Assembly (NCBI RefSeq): GCF_025263685.1
Contig: NZ_CP092109.1
Coordinates: 1,799,001-1,863,000 of the forward strand
Direction of reading: 5' to 3'
DNA length: 64,000 nucleotides
Source: Geoalkalibacter halelectricus
GTDB lineage: Bacteria > Desulfobacterota > Desulfuromonadia > Desulfuromonadales > Geoalkalibacteraceae
Shown: one piece after another, positions 1 to 7,905 of the stretch
Layout of the letters: each line of letters begins with the position of its first letter
How positions within the stretch are numbered: the first letter of the stretch is position 1
The notes under the pieces: model-generated
Databases searched by the model: none
Seen by the model: the letters and a program-made list of their open reading frames with translations, nothing else
Told to the model about the DNA's origin: nothing
Position numbers and translations under genes: made by a program

Positions 1-573
1 GTAGCGGCACGCGATATCGATAAGGAGTTCATCGCCTACTTCATTGCCAACGCTGATCTCAATCTGGAACCGATCGACAATCTCGCCGAACTGGCACAAC
101 TGGCGCAAGGCCAGGGCTGGACCTTCACCTTCGGCAGCAAAAGCAGCACCTCCAGCCATCTGATGCCGCGCAGCTTCTTTGCCGAGCAGAGCGGGAAGGC
201 ACCGGAAGCGGTGTTCCGTACCGTCGCTTTCAGCGGCAGTCACGACGTGGTGCTGCAAAAAGTCGCCAACGGAGAATTTCACCTAGGCGCCTTGGGCCAG
301 CCGCCCTATGATCGCGCCGGCGAAGAAATCAGGGCAAGAGCTCCCATCGTCTACACCACTCCCAAGTTCACCAACTACTCTCTTTCCGCCCGTGCCGACC
401 TGGGGGCAGACCTTATAGGCGAGATTCGCTCGGTGCTGCTCAACCTTCATGAAACCCCCGAAGGCCGACAAATTCTCGACTACCTCAAGGCTGGAAAATT
501 CGTCGATGCCGATATGAGCGAATGGCTCGGATACGTGGATCTCATCGAATCCGGTGTGGACATCGGCGGCTGA
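1..573 (+). CDS. PhnD-like periplasmic substrate-binding protein of a phosphonate/phosphate-type ABC importer (5' partial)
   Basis: The frame is open from base 1, so the N-terminus with its signal peptide lies outside the window. The visible part contains FTFGSKSSTSSHLMP, which matches the ligand-loop region of PhnD/PtxB-type binding proteins, followed by a segment reading VANGEFHLGALG that fits the second lobe. The family captures phosphonate, phosphite or phosphate in the periplasm and delivers it to a PhnC/PhnE transporter. Its stop overlaps the next start (TGATG), and the two downstream genes encode exactly that ATPase and permease, which supports the call. The ligand cannot be told from sequence; no phosphonate-degrading (C-P lyase) gene is visible here. 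Confidence 0.8.
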   Translation, partial: VAARDIDKEFIAYFIANADLNLEPIDNLAELAQLAQGQGWTFTFGSKSSTSSHLMPRSFFAEQSGKAPEAVFRTVAFSGSHDVVLQKVANGEFHLGALGQPPYDRAGEEIRARAPIVYTTPKFTNYSLSARADLGADLIGEIRSVLLNLHETPEGRQILDYLKAGKFVDADMSEWLGYVDLIESGVDIGG

Positions 574-1442
574 TGGCTGAAACGACCAGAATCGAGGCGC
601 CGCAAGGCGCCTCGCGCATTTCCGTTAAAGAAAGCCGGGACGTTCTGCTCAAGCCGCAAGCGGTTTTTGCCCTGCAGGGAGTCGGAAAATCCTTCGGGCG
701 CGCACAGGTGCTAACGGATATCGCTTTTTCCGTTCAGCCGGGTGAGCGCATTGCGGTAATCGGCCCGTCGGGCGCCGGAAAAACCACCTTGTTTCGCCTG
801 CTCAGCGCGGTGCTCAAGCCGAGCAGCGGGCGGGTTCTGACCCTTGGCTGCGATACCTGCGCCTTGCGTGGGCGTGCGTTGCGCCGGCTGCGGCGGCAAA
901 TCGGAGTCCTTTACCAAAACGACAACCTCATACCCCACCTGCGCGTGGTGCATAACGTGCTCATGGGGCGCCTGGGCGACTGGGCCCTGGCGCGCGCCTT
1001 GCTGTCGCTGCTGTGGCCCCAGGAACTGGCCAAGGCCAAGGAGGCTCTGGCGCGGGTGGAACTTGCCGACAAGCTCTGGAGCATGCCCGGCGAACTTTCC
1101 GGAGGCCAGCAGCAGCGTGTCGCCATCGCCCGCCTGATGGTGCAGCAGCCGCGCGTCATGCTGGCCGATGAACCGGTCAGTCAGCTCGACATCCGCCTGG
1201 GTCGCGAAATTATCGAACTGCTCTGCACCCTCGCCACATCCCTGGGCACCACCCTGCTGGTAAATCTGCACACCCTGGAATTGCTGCACGGCAATTTCGA
1301 GCGCGTCATCGCCCTCAGGCAGGGTCGTCTTTTCTGGGAAGGCGCCCCCGCCGCCATCAGCCGTGAGCTGCTCCAGGAACTCTACGGGGCGGAATATCGC
1401 GCCCTGCACCTCGACGATGTATCCCTCAACTCAGGCTCATGA
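573..1442 (+). CDS. PhnC-like ABC transporter ATP-binding protein
   Basis: This 289-residue ATPase would power the importer at the inner face of the membrane. Walker A is GPSGAGKTT at residues 64-72, the ABC signature is LSGGQQQR at about 175-182, Walker B is VMLADEP at about 195-201, and an H-loop histidine lies in NLHTLE at about 231-236. The roughly 30-residue N-terminal lead is longer than in typical PhnC. I chose the ATG at 573 because it overlaps the previous stop (TGATG) and matches translational coupling; an upstream in-frame ATG at 522 would overlap the binding-protein gene by about 50 bases. The stop overlaps the permease start (ATGA). Confidence 0.85.
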   Translation: MAETTRIEAPQGASRISVKESRDVLLKPQAVFALQGVGKSFGRAQVLTDIAFSVQPGERIAVIGPSGAGKTTLFRLLSAVLKPSSGRVLTLGCDTCALRGRALRRLRRQIGVLYQNDNLIPHLRVVHNVLMGRLGDWALARALLSLLWPQELAKAKEALARVELADKLWSMPGELSGGQQQRVAIARLMVQQPRVMLADEPVSQLDIRLGREIIELLCTLATSLGTTLLVNLHTLELLHGNFERVIALRQGRLFWEGAPAAISRELLQELYGAEYRALHLDDVSLNSGS

Positions 1443-3334
1443 ATTTGCCGCCGTCCTCTCCCGCAAGCTTTGAGCGTTATTCGACCAGACGTCCCTGGAG
1501 GCATTGGGCGACCCTGGTGATCCTGGTCGCCTTGGCGGCCGGCGCCTTTGTCGCTGCGGAGTGGGATTTTTCCGCCTTGGTCGAACCGGAATTGCGCGCC
1601 GCGGCCCTGGCCCGCATGCTGGCCTGGGCGCAAACTTTCGCGTTTCCTGATCTAAGTGGCGAGTTTCTGCGTCACTGCTGGGCCCTGACCCTGCAAACCC
1701 TCTCCGCGGCTACACTGGGAACCGCCCTGGCGGTGGTGGCCGGCTTCGTTCTGGCCATGGGGTCCTCGCGCGCGGTCTGTGTCGGTGAAGAGGATGCCCG
1801 GGGCTGGCGCCGCAATTTTCCCCTGCGCAGCCCTGCCGCGGCGCTCTGTTCGCTCTGCCGGCTGGTGCAGGATGTCTTGCGCGCCGTGCCTGATTTTGTC
1901 TGGGCGGTGATTCTGGTGGCGATGATCGGTCTGGGTCCCTTGACCGGTGCCCTGGCCTTGGCTCTAAACATCACCGGCATTTTGGCCAAGGTCTACAGTG
2001 AACTGTGGGACAGCGTCGAGGAGCGCGATTACGAACAGGTGCGCGCCCTGGGCGTGGGGCGGCTGAACACCTTTTTCTACGGCATACGTCCTCTGGCGGC
2101 CCGCAGCGTACAGAGCTTTACCCTCATGCGTGCCGAATGCGCCATCCGCAACGCCGCAGTGATCGGCGCCGTCGGTGGCGGTGGCCTGGGCGCCGATATC
2201 TGGTATCAGATTCAATTCGGTGCCTGGGGCAAGGTGACCACGCTGATGATCTTCACCCTGGCTCTGACCCTGACCGCCGACCTGGCGGCCAACTTCATCC
2301 GTCGCCAGTTGCGCAGCGATCCCAACCATCCGTGTGCCGCCAAATTGCGCGGCACCACGGGAAAACTTCTGCCCGCCTACCTCGGTACCGGGTTTGTCCT
2401 GGGAGTGGTGTTCTGGTCGCTGTGGTTCATGGGCTGGGGCGACAACGCGCCGCCGGGGCAGCAAAGCCGTAACTATCTGCAACCGGCGCTCATGCTCGTC
2501 ACCGGCGAATCCTGGCGCAATCTGGCTTTCTTCGAGCGGTTGCTGCAACCCGATTTCGACCTGGCCGCCCTGGGCTGGGGCGGGACGCATAGAAGTGTCG
2601 AGCTTTTCGCCGACTACGGTCCCCTGGAGTTCTGGAAACCGGCAGCCTGGGTGGCCTGGGACGCACAGCTGGACAAGTGGTTTGTCTGGCGGGTGATCAA
2701 ATCGGCATCGGTCCCCTTGGCTCTGGCGATTGTGGGAACCTTGGTGGGCGTCGTCGGAGCCATCATCCTGACGTACGCGCACAGTCTGGCCTTTCAAATT
2801 GAACCCTCGCGTTTCACCGGTGAGACGCCGCATCTGGCGGTGCGTGCAGTGCGCCTGGTTCAGTTGGTTCTGGCGCGGTTCACAGGGCTGGTTTCACGTG
2901 GTGTGCCTGAGGTCATGTGGGCTTTCCTCTTCATCGCTTTCTTCGGTCCGGGGTTGCTGGCCGGCACGATCGCCATCGCCATTCACAGTCTGGGGGTGCT
3001 GGTGCGGGTGTTCAGTGAGACGGTGGACAACATTCCTTATCGGCGTTTTGAACAGTCTTTCGCCGGTTCGCGCCTGAACTGCTTCGGCTATGTCGCCGCC
3101 CCGATCTGCTGGCGGGACTGGATGACCTACAGCTTTTTTCAATTCGAGAGCAACCTGCGTGCCGGAGTAGTGCTTGGGATCGTCGGGGTGGGCGGGCTGG
3201 GCTTTTTCTTTACCTTCAATTTCGAGTGGTTCCGCTTCGAGAAGGCTGGGACTTATCTTCTGATGATCATTGCCTTGACGGTGGTGACTGATCGCATATC
3301 TCGGCTGCTCAAGCTCTCGCGTGTGGGCAGTTGA
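1439..3334 (+). CDS. Fused tandem PhnE-type ABC transporter permease
   Basis: At 631 residues this is about twice the length of a usual PhnE. Two permease halves are visible. The first half carries an EAA-like loop around ERDYEQVRALGVGRLNTFF, followed by a glycine-rich GAVGGGGLG. The second half repeats the pattern with YRRFEQSFAGSRLNCFGY and GIVGVGGLG. Several long hydrophobic segments lie in each half. A single polypeptide would therefore supply both membrane subunits of the importer. The gene starts inside the ATPase stop (ATGA) and ends just before a bidirectional terminator, so it closes the three-gene operon. Substrate class (phosphonate, phosphite or phosphate) is inferred from the family only. 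Confidence 0.85.
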   Translation: MNLPPSSPASFERYSTRRPWRHWATLVILVALAAGAFVAAEWDFSALVEPELRAAALARMLAWAQTFAFPDLSGEFLRHCWALTLQTLSAATLGTALAVVAGFVLAMGSSRAVCVGEEDARGWRRNFPLRSPAAALCSLCRLVQDVLRAVPDFVWAVILVAMIGLGPLTGALALALNITGILAKVYSELWDSVEERDYEQVRALGVGRLNTFFYGIRPLAARSVQSFTLMRAECAIRNAAVIGAVGGGGLGADIWYQIQFGAWGKVTTLMIFTLALTLTADLAANFIRRQLRSDPNHPCAAKLRGTTGKLLPAYLGTGFVLGVVFWSLWFMGWGDNAPPGQQSRNYLQPALMLVTGESWRNLAFFERLLQPDFDLAALGWGGTHRSVELFADYGPLEFWKPAAWVAWDAQLDKWFVWRVIKSASVPLALAIVGTLVGVVGAIILTYAHSLAFQIEPSRFTGETPHLAVRAVRLVQLVLARFTGLVSRGVPEVMWAFLFIAFFGPGLLAGTIAIAIHSLGVLVRVFSETVDNIPYRRFEQSFAGSRLNCFGYVAAPICWRDWMTYSFFQFESNLRAGVVLGIVGVGGLGFFFTFNFEWFRFEKAGTYLLMIIALTVVTDRISRLLKLSRVGS

Positions 3335-3382: not shown

Positions 3383-4606
3383 TCAACGGGCTTGGTGGCA
3401 CGCTCCACAGTCGGTTCGATCAGTTCCGGGTATTTGGGGAATGGTAAAATCGAACTGGCCGTCAACCAGAACAAGTGTGTGGCATGAACTGCAATCATAA
3501 GTTTGACCAGGCTGGTTCGGCGGGTTGGGCGCCACCGTGTTTATAGGTATGGTGGCGCCAATCAGGAAGTGATGCCGATTGACGATCCGGTTGGGGTCTT
3601 CGACATATTCCTGGAATCCTTCCGGATCCTCAATGGGATCGGGCGGGACAAAGTCCGGATCGTCAAAATGGCATCTCTGGCACTGGGCGTATTCATCTTC
3701 GAATTGGTGCCCAAAGCCCAGATGGTAGCCTTGGTCGATCAGGTCGAAGAAATCTGCTCTGAAGGTGGCGAGGACGCGGCCGGTCTGCGCGATATAATCA
3801 TCGACCTTGGTGCCGGTAAAGGGCATCGGCGGTGGTCCGTGGCAGGAGACGCAGCCATCGGGATGAACAAAAGGGTTGCTGACATGGCACTCCAGGCACG
3901 AGGGGCCGCTGCCGCCCAGGCCGTCAACGCCATGACACAGAGTGCAGGCCTGGAGATTGCCCACGTCCCAATGACCCAGGTTGGCCAGACGGCCATCGGG
4001 GAATTCCAGGCGTTGGCCGAACCACCAGAAATGGTCCGGAGCGCTCGACCCCGGGTGGGCTGCTAACGCCGGATGGGCGACTTCTTTGCGGAGGGGGTCT
4101 CCGGATATGGTGTCGACAAAAGTGTTGACGCGCCCGTTGTCGTGGCACATCAGGCTTTCGCAGCCACCGGGAAGGTCGCGCATGGAGATATCGAAGCGCG
4201 GGTTGCTGCCGGGACCGCCGCTTTCGCCGTGACAACCCTGGCATGAAGCGATGTCGCGCTTGGCAGCGCGGCCGTGGTTGAGGGGGTGCGCCCAGGGTAG
4301 ATCGGGTTCATCCCAGCCGGCTTCGTGATGCAAATCAAAGGGCGGCCCGCCGAGGTGGCAGACAAAGCAACTGGGCACGCCACCGCCGCCGCGAAAATCC
4401 GCGCGGTGGCAGACCTGGCATTCACTGAGGTCGCCGCGGGATTGAGCGAGGAGGGTCGGGGTATCGTGAGTGAATCTCCAACCCGGTTCATGGGCGTTGC
4501 GGGTGGTGGCCGCCCCTTCGTTGCTATCGCCGCTGCCGCAGCCGCCGATCAACAGCAGCAGCGCCAGGAGCAACATTCCCAACAATGTATTTTCTCCCCT
4601 GGGCAT
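3383..4606 (-). CDS. Multihaem c-type cytochrome lipoprotein (nine CxxCH plus one CX4CH site)
   Basis: The 407-residue product begins with a hydrophobic segment and a lipobox ending IGGC, so it is probably a lipoprotein. Nine CxxCH haem-binding motifs are present (CQVCH, CFVCH, CQGCH, CTLCH, CLECH, CVSCH, CQRCH, CSSCH, CGACH). A tenth site has wider spacing, CESLMCH. Such proteins pass electrons across or outside the outer membrane in metal-reducing bacteria. The ATG is preceded by GAGGTC, and the gene follows the pentahaem gene by 18 nt, so the two are co-transcribed with the barrel gene upstream. The haem count is a motif count. Orientation (inner or outer face of the outer membrane) cannot be read from the sequence. 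Confidence 0.88.
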   Translation of the reverse strand: MPRGENTLLGMLLLALLLLIGGCGSGDSNEGAATTRNAHEPGWRFTHDTPTLLAQSRGDLSECQVCHRADFRGGGGVPSCFVCHLGGPPFDLHHEAGWDEPDLPWAHPLNHGRAAKRDIASCQGCHGESGGPGSNPRFDISMRDLPGGCESLMCHDNGRVNTFVDTISGDPLRKEVAHPALAAHPGSSAPDHFWWFGQRLEFPDGRLANLGHWDVGNLQACTLCHGVDGLGGSGPSCLECHVSNPFVHPDGCVSCHGPPPMPFTGTKVDDYIAQTGRVLATFRADFFDLIDQGYHLGFGHQFEDEYAQCQRCHFDDPDFVPPDPIEDPEGFQEYVEDPNRIVNRHHFLIGATIPINTVAPNPPNQPGQTYDCSSCHTLVLVDGQFDFTIPQIPGTDRTDCGACHQAR

Positions 4607-4624
4607 TATTGACCTCGTTCCCGT

Positions 4625-5095
4625 TTAACCATGGCAAGGACGGCAGGTCTGCGATGCTTTCGGATTGCCGTGACAGCGAAAGCACGAAGTCGGGTCGATA
4701 CGACCGTCGATGCGGTGGCGTGAGAGATAATCTCCACGGTGCTGGGTGCGGCGAAAATTTTCCGTTTGGTTGCGCAAGGACGGCTTAAGTTCGACGCGTG
4801 TGGCGTGGCAACTGTTGCAGAAGCTCTGCTCGTGACACATGGCGCAGACGGCTTCGTTTTGATAGGTGACGAGTCGGTGGTTGTCGGTGAAGTAGGGCGT
4901 ATGATTGTAGCGCTCGTAGACCATCTCCTTGTTGTCATAGCCGTGGCAGCGCACGCAATAGACCCGCCTCTCGCCCAATTCATAGATGGGAGGATGAGTT
5001 TTGGGCGGGCGATAGCCGTTGCCGGCGACACAGGAAATCAGCAAGCCGGCCAGGCCGGCGGCGAGAAGTATGGTCAGGATTTTTCTGCTGCTCAT
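4625..5095 (-). CDS. Pentahaem c-type cytochrome lipoprotein
   Basis: The protein has 156 residues. I chose the ATG at 5095 because it has GGAG about 8 nt upstream and starts a clean signal sequence ending in the lipobox LISC; an ATG 13 codons earlier lacks these advantages. Five CxxCH motifs are visible (CVRCH, CAMCH, CNSCH, CFRCH, CRPCH), spaced over the whole mature protein. It lies between the barrel gene (51 nt gap) and the decahaem gene (18 nt gap), which suggests one electron-transfer complex. Small lipoprotein cytochromes of this kind occur beside barrels in Geobacter conduits, but I cannot assign an orthologue. Confidence 0.87.
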   Translation of the reverse strand: MSSRKILTILLAAGLAGLLISCVAGNGYRPPKTHPPIYELGERRVYCVRCHGYDNKEMVYERYNHTPYFTDNHRLVTYQNEAVCAMCHEQSFCNSCHATRVELKPSLRNQTENFRRTQHRGDYLSRHRIDGRIDPTSCFRCHGNPKASQTCRPCHG

Positions 5096-5146
5096 AGAAC
5101 CGACTCCAAGAAAGTGCGCGCGAGCACAACACACATGGGCCTGTGG

Positions 5147-6421
5147 TCAATCATACAGGTAGTGGGCCGCGAGGGTGGTGCGAAAATTGTTGTCGAGGTA
5201 GGGATCGTCGCTGTAATCAAAGGAAAATTTCACCTTGAGCCGGTCCCCCATCAGGCCGCGGCCCAGCCCCAGGGAAGCGAACCAGGCCTGGTCCTTGCCG
5301 AAAATCGGGCGGTCGTAATCGACCAGGATGGCATCGCCGGTGACAAACCAGGGACGCATGTCCCAATAGAAAAATCCGCGCGCCAGGGTGAAGCGGTCGC
5401 GCGCCTGGTCGCCATCCATGCGCCCCAACTCGATGCCGACCTGGCTGAGGATTTTGATTTTCCAGGTGCTGATCAGGGAATAATAATCGGCGCTCCCGAA
5501 GCGCTTGCCGTATTCGTAATGCTTGTACACCCCGGCCAGTTCAAAGCGCTCGTCGACATAGAGAAATGCCTCGGCGCCCATGACTTCCAATGTGTTTCCG
5601 GTGCCGGCGAGAAAGCGGAAAGGAAAGGCGGAGCTGTCGCTTTCGATAAAGAAATCATCGAAGCGATATCTCTGGTAGAAAGGGCGAAACTCAACCGGAC
5701 CCAGGGGCAGGCGAAGTTCATAGAAATGCTCGGCCCAACCGTCGGTTTTGAGGTTATAGACCGAACTACCCTGAAGGGAAATGCGGCCGGGCAAGAAGAA
5801 AAAACTGTCGAACCCGGCGAAATGCTCGTCATTGCCGCCGTCGTTGGCGAGGGCCTTGTAGGACAGGCCCACCTCATAGCGACCGATGCGGTGGTGGGAA
5901 ATGCGCCCGCCGAAGACATAGTCGCCGCTACGCCCATTGGTGGATGAGAGAGCGGCGGGTTGACCGGCGTAGGCGCTCAGGGTCAGCCCATGGGGCAGTT
6001 GCGAGCGGCCGTAGATGCCATCGACGGCGACATTGGCCACCCCCTCGAAGACGTAAAAGCGGCCCAGACGTCCGACGAAGTCCAGGGTGGGGAAGTCATA
6101 TTCAAGGTAGGCATAGAGAAGCTGACCGGTGGTGGTGTCATCAAAATAGTCGTCGCCCAGGTTAATGCGCATCCAGCCATAGCCGTGGAAGCTCAAGGCG
6201 GCCTCTTCGCGATCTCCGTAATCGATTTGCAGGTATTGGTAGGCGGGAAGCGCTTTTTGCCCGCGCGCATCGGGCAGGTCGCGTTCAAAGGATTGCAGAA
6301 TGGTATCCGAAGTCAGGCGCAGTTGGGTGCCGAATACCAAACTCGGCAGGATCAGGACCAAAAAACAGCAGCACAACAAAAGGCAGGCCGCCCGAAAATT
6401 GCGACTCGGAGCCGCGATCAT
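5147..6421 (-). CDS. Outer-membrane beta-barrel protein, candidate porin of an electron conduit
   Basis: The protein has 424 residues with an N-terminal hydrophobic signal (AACLLLCCCFLVLILPSLVFG). The rest is rich in alternating aromatic and polar strands (for example FHGYGWMRINLG, YLEYDFPTLDFVGRLGRFYV) with short turns, typical of a transmembrane barrel. It ends in LAAHYLYD rather than a classic terminal Phe. The start at 6421 has a strong GAAGGGGG site; the open frame extends further upstream but that part looks like leader RNA. It is first in an operon with two haem lipoproteins, so a porin-cytochrome role is likely. I do not recognise it as OmbB or MtrB. Strand number would need a structure prediction. 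Confidence 0.75.
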   Translation of the reverse strand: MIAAPSRNFRAACLLLCCCFLVLILPSLVFGTQLRLTSDTILQSFERDLPDARGQKALPAYQYLQIDYGDREEAALSFHGYGWMRINLGDDYFDDTTTGQLLYAYLEYDFPTLDFVGRLGRFYVFEGVANVAVDGIYGRSQLPHGLTLSAYAGQPAALSSTNGRSGDYVFGGRISHHRIGRYEVGLSYKALANDGGNDEHFAGFDSFFFLPGRISLQGSSVYNLKTDGWAEHFYELRLPLGPVEFRPFYQRYRFDDFFIESDSSAFPFRFLAGTGNTLEVMGAEAFLYVDERFELAGVYKHYEYGKRFGSADYYSLISTWKIKILSQVGIELGRMDGDQARDRFTLARGFFYWDMRPWFVTGDAILVDYDRPIFGKDQAWFASLGLGRGLMGDRLKVKFSFDYSDDPYLDNNFRTTLAAHYLYD

Positions 6422-6682: not shown

Positions 6683-6713
6683 CAAAGAAAGCCCCCGCCG
6701 TGGGGCGGGGGCT
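6683..6713 (-). terminator. Intrinsic terminator after the cupin gene
   Basis: Minus strand: a perfect 10-bp GC-rich stem (AGCCCCCGCC with GGCGGGGGCT, four-base loop) followed by TTTCTTT. It lies about 50 nt after the cupin stop and insulates the conduit operon from it. Confidence 0.8.
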
Positions 6714-6761: not shown

Positions 6762-7121
6762 TTATTTGGCAGAGGCCTGGGCGGCTTTGAACAGGGTCAA
6801 AAGCATTTTAAATTTTTTTACCGCCCGTACCCGATGGGAAACATGTCCGGGCATCAGGATGATTTGCCCTGCCTTGACGGTGGAGGGGTTCTGGCCCACG
6901 GTGATTTCCGCCTCCCCGTCCAGAACCTGAACGAATGCGTGGTAAGGCACGGTGTGTTCGGAAAGAGCTTGCCCTTCATCAAAACTGAAAACCGTCAGGG
7001 TGCCGGTTTCGTCCTGAAGCAAGGTCCGGCTGACCACGGCCCCGTCCTGATAATCCACCAATTCGGCCAGATGAGTGGGAACACCGCCTTCAAGCTTTAC
7101 GGAATGGTTGTCACTGGTCAT
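6762..7121 (-). CDS. Small cupin-domain protein
   Basis: The 119-residue protein is a single conserved cupin barrel. Motif 1 is seen as EGQALSEHTVPYHAFVQVLDG and motif 2 as VKAGQIILMPGHVSHRVRA. Metal-ligand candidates are the His in SEHTVPYH and the His of GHVSHRV. Proteins of this type bind a metal and often a small ligand; the substrate is unknown. GGAG lies upstream of the ATG, a TATAAT box lies at 7167-7172 and a palindrome at 7204-7221, so it appears to be a monocistronic, regulated gene with its own terminator. Confidence 0.8.
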   Translation of the reverse strand: MTSDNHSVKLEGGVPTHLAELVDYQDGAVVSRTLLQDETGTLTVFSFDEGQALSEHTVPYHAFVQVLDGEAEITVGQNPSTVKAGQIILMPGHVSHRVRAVKKFKMLLTLFKAAQASAK

Positions 7122-7203: not shown

Positions 7204-7221
7204 CCTTGACCGGGGTCAAGG
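7204..7221. promoter_or_regulatory. FNR/CRP-like palindromic operator upstream of the cupin gene
   Basis: CCTTGACC-GG-GGTCAAGG is a perfect 8-bp inverted repeat. The core TTGAC-N4-GTCAA resembles Crp/Fnr-family half-sites. It lies about 52 bp before the predicted cupin transcription start and overlaps the stop codon of the upstream lipoprotein gene. Confidence 0.4.
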
Positions 7222-7905
7222 AGTGCTGACCAGTTCCCACAAACGCTCGATATCTCGGATGAGAGCGGCATTTTCCGCGAGGTTGATGGCGTAATACAGG
7301 GCCACCGAGGTACTTTTTTCGTCGTTGAGTAAATGATAGGCGAGGGCTACATGATAAAGGGCCAGGGCTTGCTCGTCGTTGTCGCGGCCGAGGTGTTGGG
7401 CCAGGGTGAAACGATCCAGGGCCAGGGCGATTTGCCCACGCGCCAGGGCCAGGGCACCGGAAGCATCGACATAGAGGAAAGCGCCCTCGGGCAGGTGGGG
7501 GAGCAGGGCGGCGGCTTCCTGAGGCTCGGCGAGCTTTAGGGTTAGAAGCAGGATCAAGCGATGGTGAAGGAGATCGCTTTGATTCTGGTTGGGCGCGCTG
7601 TCGAGCAAGGCATCAGTGTAGGTCTTGCGCGCCTCGAGATCGCGGCCGAGAATTTCCAGGATTTCGGCGCGACGCAGATAATAGGCAGTTTCAAGGGGGT
7701 CGGCGAGGATGGCGAGTTGGTATTCCGTTGCCGCTTGTTCCAGATCGCGATGGAAAACGAAATTTTCGGCGTGTTGGGCGTGTTCTTCAGCTGAAAGGGT
7801 CGGGCTGGGTTGGGGCGAGGACGGAGAAGGAGGGGTGCAGGACGCAAGAAGTCCAAGGCAACTCAGCATCGCGACGAGGAGGAATAAACGCAGGCGAGAA
7901 ATCAT
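7216..7905 (-). CDS. TPR-like lipoprotein of unknown function
   Basis: The protein has 229 residues. It starts with a signal peptide ending in the lipobox LLASC, then a Pro/Ser-rich linker, then helical repeats of the tetratricopeptide kind (for example QAATEYQLAILADPLETAYYLRRAEILEILG). Such repeats usually act as protein-binding scaffolds at the envelope. It is separated from purC upstream by a strong terminator, so it probably has its own promoter. No enzymatic motif is visible, and neighbours give no clear functional hint. Confidence 0.75.
   Translation of the reverse strand: MISRLRLFLLVAMLSCLGLLASCTPPSPSSPQPSPTLSAEEHAQHAENFVFHRDLEQAATEYQLAILADPLETAYYLRRAEILEILGRDLEARKTYTDALLDSAPNQNQSDLLHHRLILLLTLKLAEPQEAAALLPHLPEGAFLYVDASGALALARGQIALALDRFTLAQHLGRDNDEQALALYHVALAYHLLNDEKSTSVALYYAINLAENAALIRDIERLWELVSTP

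Follow-up and report, generated by a model that had tools for sequence, protein, structure and literature searches.

The locus lies in a stretch of 64,000 nucleotides, called the window here, of contig NZ_CP092109.1 from Geoalkalibacter halelectricus, whose genome is a single contig of 4.13 Mb. Reading of the open reading frames across the 64 kb window places an extBCD-like trio on the minus strand, in the order barrel, 5-haem protein and larger cytochrome. The intergenic gaps are 51 nt between the barrel and the 5-haem gene and 18 nt between the 5-haem gene and that of the larger cytochrome. The original prediction, made from the sequence alone, had described this arrangement as a barrel with five-haem and nine- or ten-haem lipoproteins on one strand, and it is confirmed in all these respects, the larger cytochrome having nine CXXCH motifs and one CX4CH motif. 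The features of the locus are:

5147..6421, minus strand: extB-like gene, encoding an outer-membrane barrel of 424 aa with an ATG start, a signal-like N-terminus and 22 predicted strands
4625..5095, minus strand: extC-like gene, encoding a pentahaem lipoprotein of 156 aa with 5 CXXCH and the lipobox LLIS-C, ending in CHG
3383..4606, minus strand: extD-like gene, encoding a lipoprotein cytochrome of 407 aa with 9 CXXCH, one CX4CH and the lipobox LIGG-C
6690..6713, minus strand: terminator-like hairpin between the cupin gene and extB, a consensus match only

For the extC-like gene, the ATG at 5095 is preferred as the start over an upstream GTG at 5134. The CX4CH motif of the extD-like protein reads CESLMCH, and a Cytochrome_C7 stretch at residues 368-406 of this protein is the sole Pfam match above the cut-off in the trio. 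The barrel itself has no match in Pfam or NCBIfam. Across the six reading frames of the window, only the two cytochromes of the locus give stop-to-stop frames with at least two CXXCH, so their motifs are not a product of chance. The position of the hairpin, between the cupin gene and extB, suggests that extBCD forms a transcription unit of its own. On the other side of the trio, a convergent gene ends at 3334.

The neighbouring genes have their own distinctive features. Positions 1-3334 of the window encode a phosphonate-type ABC transporter, convergent with extBCD, which consists of a binding protein, an ATPase and a permease; the permease, of 631 aa, has two permease domains fused (PhnE-PhnE). 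The cupin and TPR-protein genes upstream of extBCD (6762-7121 and 7216-7905) are kept in L039-L042, which belong to the same genus and family, and were not found next to extBCD in the more distant relatives. Their conservation is probably plain synteny. No RNA family reaches the Rfam gathering score in the window, which thus has no known riboswitch.

Homologues of the barrel occur throughout the order, and the window's barrel is 35-87% identical to those of many genomes. A Geoalkalibacter sp. contig carries the same locus, with a barrel 75% identical and with purC, TPR and cupin genes likewise as neighbours. Fifty-four related loci were drawn from named genome contigs. Among the distinct related barrels of L039-L074 and L079-L132, which were taken without prior selection for the 5-haem gene, 66 of 68 have this gene directly downstream on the same strand. 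The first exception is L123, where the contig ends inside the barrel. The second is one locus present as both L072 and L127 (L072:9351-10520 = L127:7923-9092), where the barrel belongs to the family, is 44% identical to the window's and has no CXXCH-containing frame within 20 kb; it is an orphan or a barrel with a different partner. Relatives devoid of neighbouring cytochromes, which according to the original prediction would speak against a conduit, are therefore not the rule, a 5-haem gene standing beside 66 of the 68 distinct barrels.

The three products differ in how well they are conserved. In loci selected for having both the barrel and the pentahaem gene, some of them present twice, five CXXCH motifs are present in the pentahaem protein of 83 of 85 loci, and 83 of its 86 sequences carry a lipobox. 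In the same selected loci, the pentahaem protein has a median identity of 56% to its counterpart in the window, the barrel 41% and the third protein 33%. The number of CXXCH motifs in the third protein ranges from 3 to 30 among relatives, some of these frames being cut at contig ends. As judged from these sequences, conservation among the three products is highest for the small cytochrome, while the putative surface cytochrome is freely replaced.

In the published description, ExtABCD consists of a periplasmic dodecahaem cytochrome, ExtA, a barrel, ExtB, and two lipoproteins, ExtC with 5 haems and ExtD (PMC6148476). ExtA is a 32 kDa protein with 12 haems (PMC12977616). In ten genomes outside the window's order but within the same class (L172-L181), an ExtA is found directly upstream of a barrel of the same clade as the window's. 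These linked ExtAs are 290-330 aa in length and have 11 CXXCH and one CX3CH motif, and are thus dodecahaem proteins. In a maximum-likelihood tree, the window's barrel groups with the ExtA-linked barrels at 97/98, a sister clade is set apart at 99/94, and the Omb-type barrels are set apart at 100/100. Between the extD-like protein and the third product of L117, an ExtA-linked cluster, the identity is 44%.

The 277 genomes searched within the class do not include G. sulfurreducens, the best match to OmcS being 72% (query checked against PDB 6EF8), and ExtA-D of this species were compared as peptides and protein ends read from the primer table of PMC8357294. The ExtA peptide FTCQGCH and the ExtA C-terminus PVRQR are both close to the ExtA family described here. 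The ExtB peptides DYLNDRS, GISMFAHS and LTYDSRF fit the window's barrel clade, lying as far from the C-terminus as expected, with an equally good fit in 4, 24 and 4 of 2000 shuffles, respectively. The three GSU2644 primer peptides do not fit the sister barrel clade. The ExtD peptide is LNQCKVC in G. sulfurreducens and LSECQVC in the window, and ExtC of G. sulfurreducens ends in glycine, as do the proteins of the window's clade (CHG).

The locus thus has a barrel of the ExtB clade, a pentahaem lipoprotein directly after it and a second haem lipoprotein, together with a dodecahaem homologue that is unlinked. With these features, it is very probably the extBCD part of the ExtABCD porin-cytochrome family, with an apparently unplugged 22-strand ExtB, an ExtC that is the likely wire, a surface ExtD and an unlinked ExtA as donor. 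The original prediction had called the layout closest to Ext-type clusters and a candidate outer-membrane electron conduit, and both statements are borne out, the trio belonging to the ExtB, ExtC and ExtD families. Its remark that none of the proteins could be matched is not supported. The cluster also has the make-up of the Pcc clusters, defined by an adjacent barrel of 18-22 predicted strands, a small cytochrome with 5-14 haems and an outer-membrane cytochrome (PMC4245776); here these are the 22-strand barrel, the 5-haem small cytochrome and the adjoining lipoprotein cytochrome. The present analysis shows the gene content, the homology, the linkage, the presence of an unlinked ExtA homologue and the predicted barrel, while a role in current production would be carried over, by analogy, from the published genetics of G. 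sulfurreducens.

A barrel with a pentahaem lipoprotein is also part of ExtEFG (PMC6148476), and the first two genes of the sister clade (L182-L191, L201) are the same as here. However, the tree sets the sister clade apart at 99/94, the GSU2644 primer peptides fit the window's clade only, and linkage to ExtA is found only in the window's clade, which makes it highly improbable that the locus is a member of the sister clade or of ExtEFG. In the sister clade, the barrel is followed by the pentahaem gene, no ExtA is linked, and other large cytochromes are located nearby. In ExtEFG, compared here by layout, the first two genes are followed by one for a periplasmic dodecahaem cytochrome and by hydrogenase genes, whereas the window has a 9+1-haem lipoprotein in third place and a phosphonate-type transporter as convergent neighbour. 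ExtHIJKL membership is likewise rejected: there is no rhodanese-like lipoprotein in the locus, and the ExtS model scores 13.8 bits against a cut-off of 100, with the third protein only.

Relative to ExtABCD of G. sulfurreducens (GSU2645-GSU2642), the barrel, the pentahaem lipoprotein, the further haem lipoprotein and their order are alike, whereas the extA of the window's genome is about 0.57 Mb away and its product may be lipid-anchored. In the third protein, 9+1 haem motifs are present, compared with 6 or 12 reported for ExtD; this third gene is variable within the ExtABCD family. Relatives with a contiguous extBCD, and with extA elsewhere in some genomes, were already published in 2018 (PMC6148476, Fig. 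9 footnote b). The window has the same arrangement as these extBCD loci of Desulfuromonadales without an adjacent extA, and no difference was found at the level of the arrangement. The finding adds one further extBCD locus to an already described family.

The ExtA homologue of the window's genome was found in a search with a linked ExtA:

C1:1233379-1234305, same genome: ExtA homologue of 308 aa with 12 CXXCH, 49% identical over the matched part

This protein, encoded about 0.57 Mb from extBCD, aligns with the linked ExtAs over the whole haem region at 41-50% identity. In a tree it groups with the linked ExtAs at 100/100, apart from its paralogue; three genomes of the same genus are represented in this tree by the neighbouring paralogue, and their rows are uninformative on ExtA. 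In the class-wide search it is the top match outside the extA-linked genomes, a rank that is biased by its inclusion in the profile. Because of a lipobox-like site, VVAA-C, at its N-terminus, the homologue may be lipid-anchored, so that the label 'soluble' is uncertain even for it. The original statement that no periplasmic cytochrome is encoded is thus correct for the locus and incorrect for the genome. The homologue is one of two adjacent 12-haem genes at C1:1232555-1234305, the other encoding the paralogue of 265 aa, and each of the three genomes of the same genus also yields two such 12-haem matches.

The presence of ExtA does not strictly track that of extBCD in the class-wide search, and no extA is found in the locus or beside most related barrels of the order. 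In G051, a single-contig genome with two extBCD loci, no ExtA match is obtained at 1e-20, a result that covers only the 8 of 24 candidates that were scored. These observations would suit a new conduit that is independent of ExtA, in which electrons cross the outer membrane by means of only the barrel and two lipoproteins. Such a conduit is nevertheless improbable, given that the window's genome has an ExtA homologue, that the barrel clade includes ExtA-linked members, that the G051 negative covers 8 of 24 candidates and that extBCD without an adjacent extA is already published (PMC6148476). For the last reason, and with an unlinked extA in the genome, the suggestion that the locus could be a new conduit type gives way to membership of the ExtABCD family.

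The AlphaFold2 model of ExtB, built with 40 sequences, is a beta barrel of 22 long strands preceded by a signal helix, with a mean pLDDT of 89.1. Its secondary structure has no plug-like element, and haems are absent from the model. ExtB is thus apparently a wide barrel without a plug, and the closed or too narrow pore that the original prediction named as evidence against a conduit is not seen in the model of the barrel alone. From sequence, 18 strands were predicted for ExtB in PMC6148476. The backbone radius of a 22-strand barrel is about 20 Å, as calculated by hand from the standard barrel formula and not from coordinates, and a radius of this size suggests that the predicted lumen has room for a slim haem chain. 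Among solved folds, the FimD usher and porins, OccAB4 for example, come nearest to the model, with no conduit barrel among its 50 best structural matches. The barrel profile finds no PDB chain at E<=1, MtrB included, and PDB sequence searches with the window's cytochromes give nothing useful, other haem profiles giving weak background or nothing.

With ushers and porins as its nearest folds, and with neither MtrB nor another PDB chain matched in sequence, the barrel could be taken for an ordinary solute porin that merely sits beside two cytochrome genes. The linkage of 66 of 68 distinct barrels to the 5-haem gene, and the homology of the barrel and the small cytochrome, each to its counterpart in Omb-type clusters, make this extremely improbable. 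With MtrCAB of Shewanella, the window's cluster has in common the general logic of a barrel, a haem wire and a surface cytochrome, but MtrB is larger, with 28 predicted strands (PMC4245776) versus 22. MtrCAB membership is rejected, as neither the barrel profile nor the pentahaem profile matches an Mtr chain in the PDB.

The window's genome has two further barrel clusters, at C1:217967-219313 (L199) and C1:481034-482356 (L200). Their barrels are near-identical and their 10-haem partners similar, while their third genes are unlike, with 13 CXXCH in 850 aa in L199 versus 6 CXXCH in 577 aa in L200. This pattern resembles a recent duplication accompanied by an exchange of the surface cytochrome. 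Barrels of this group also occur in G155 and G144, which are more distant genomes, in clusters with an 8-haem protein of 230 aa and a long haem lipoprotein; the L202 cluster is in tandem, and the L203 cluster has a 12-haem protein of 757 aa. These clusters match the published ombB-omaB-omcB layout, with 8 and 12 haems (PMC4245776) and an OmaB of 25 kDa with 8 haems (PMC12977616), and the name Omb is used here on the basis of layout and haem counts, not of a GSU comparison.

A profile of the ExtB clade only finds the Omb-type barrels at E=1e-13 to 1e-24, the next match having E=3.9. In hhalign, ExtB and the Omb-type barrel align over 399 columns at E=7.6e-26, with an identity of about 18%. The model of one Omb-type barrel also has 22 strands, its alignment having included ExtB-like rows. 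When 382 multihaem ORFs are scored with the ExtC profile, every 8/10-haem partner places higher than any other protein outside the ExtC-like ones. Most of these partners keep the lead when the cysteines and the histidine of each CXXCH are masked, the best E then being 1.7e-7. In hhalign, ExtC aligns with the N-terminal half of an 8/10-haem partner over 111 columns (E=2e-21), versus only 22 columns with ExtA. Based on these comparisons of sequence, ExtB is judged to be homologous to the barrel, and ExtC to the 8/10-haem cytochrome, of conduits of the Omb-Oma-Omc type (PMC4245776), both barrels having 22 predicted strands. The Oma-type proteins have 8-10 haems and, in those read, no lipobox, whereas the ExtC-like proteins have 5 haems and a lipobox. 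The locus is not itself a member of the Omb-Oma-Omc group, its barrel being in a separate clade (100/100) and its small cytochrome having 5 haems, not 8.

A published statement holds that Ext and OmcB components share no homology. In PMC4245776, clusters were found by similarity to OmbB and OmaB, with GSU2645 (ExtA) listed merely as an associated gene, a treatment of ExtA that is closer to the present picture. The homology of ExtB and ExtC to Omb and Oma was not found stated in the papers covered and is possibly new, even though PMC4245776 used such similarity.

In the proposed mechanism, ExtB would form a 22-strand, apparently unplugged pore in the outer membrane. ExtC, a small lipid-anchored pentahaem protein, would most likely be located inside the barrel or at its mouth and conduct electrons through it. 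ExtD would be an exchangeable surface lipoprotein that passes electrons to acceptors, conductive cytochromes or electrodes, and the unlinked 12-haem ExtA homologue, probably along with further periplasmic cytochromes, would supply the electrons on the periplasmic side. We infer the position of ExtC in the barrel, which way the electrons flow and what accepts them in this organism; a place for ExtC within the barrel is suggested by the homology of ExtB and ExtC with the Omb-type barrel and the 8/10-haem cytochrome. Tentatively, and at a little under an even chance, the electron wire within the barrel is the lipid-anchored ExtC instead of ExtA, ExtBC and the barrel-cytochrome pair of Omb-Oma-Omc form one ancient module, the surface cytochromes are exchangeable, and ExtA is optional. 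Against this placement, ExtC is drawn on the outer cell surface in the published schemes of 2018 and 2021. In G. sulfurreducens, deletion of extB, extC or extD alone harms electrode current as much as does removal of the entire cluster, while deletion of extA has a much smaller effect on current (PMC8357294). By analogy, a model with ExtC as the conductor would fit these single deletions, including the mild extA phenotype. The contrast between the small and the surface cytochrome yields a testable model of the through-membrane conductor in the conduit on which Geobacter depends for passing electrons to electrodes.

Elsewhere in the window's genome, around C1:157859-159727, C1:166608-168143 and C1:195623-197155, there are open frames of 2764, 2731 and 2621 aa. 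All three are very long, each has several Cytochrome_C7 stretches, and they are possible giant multihaem cytochromes.
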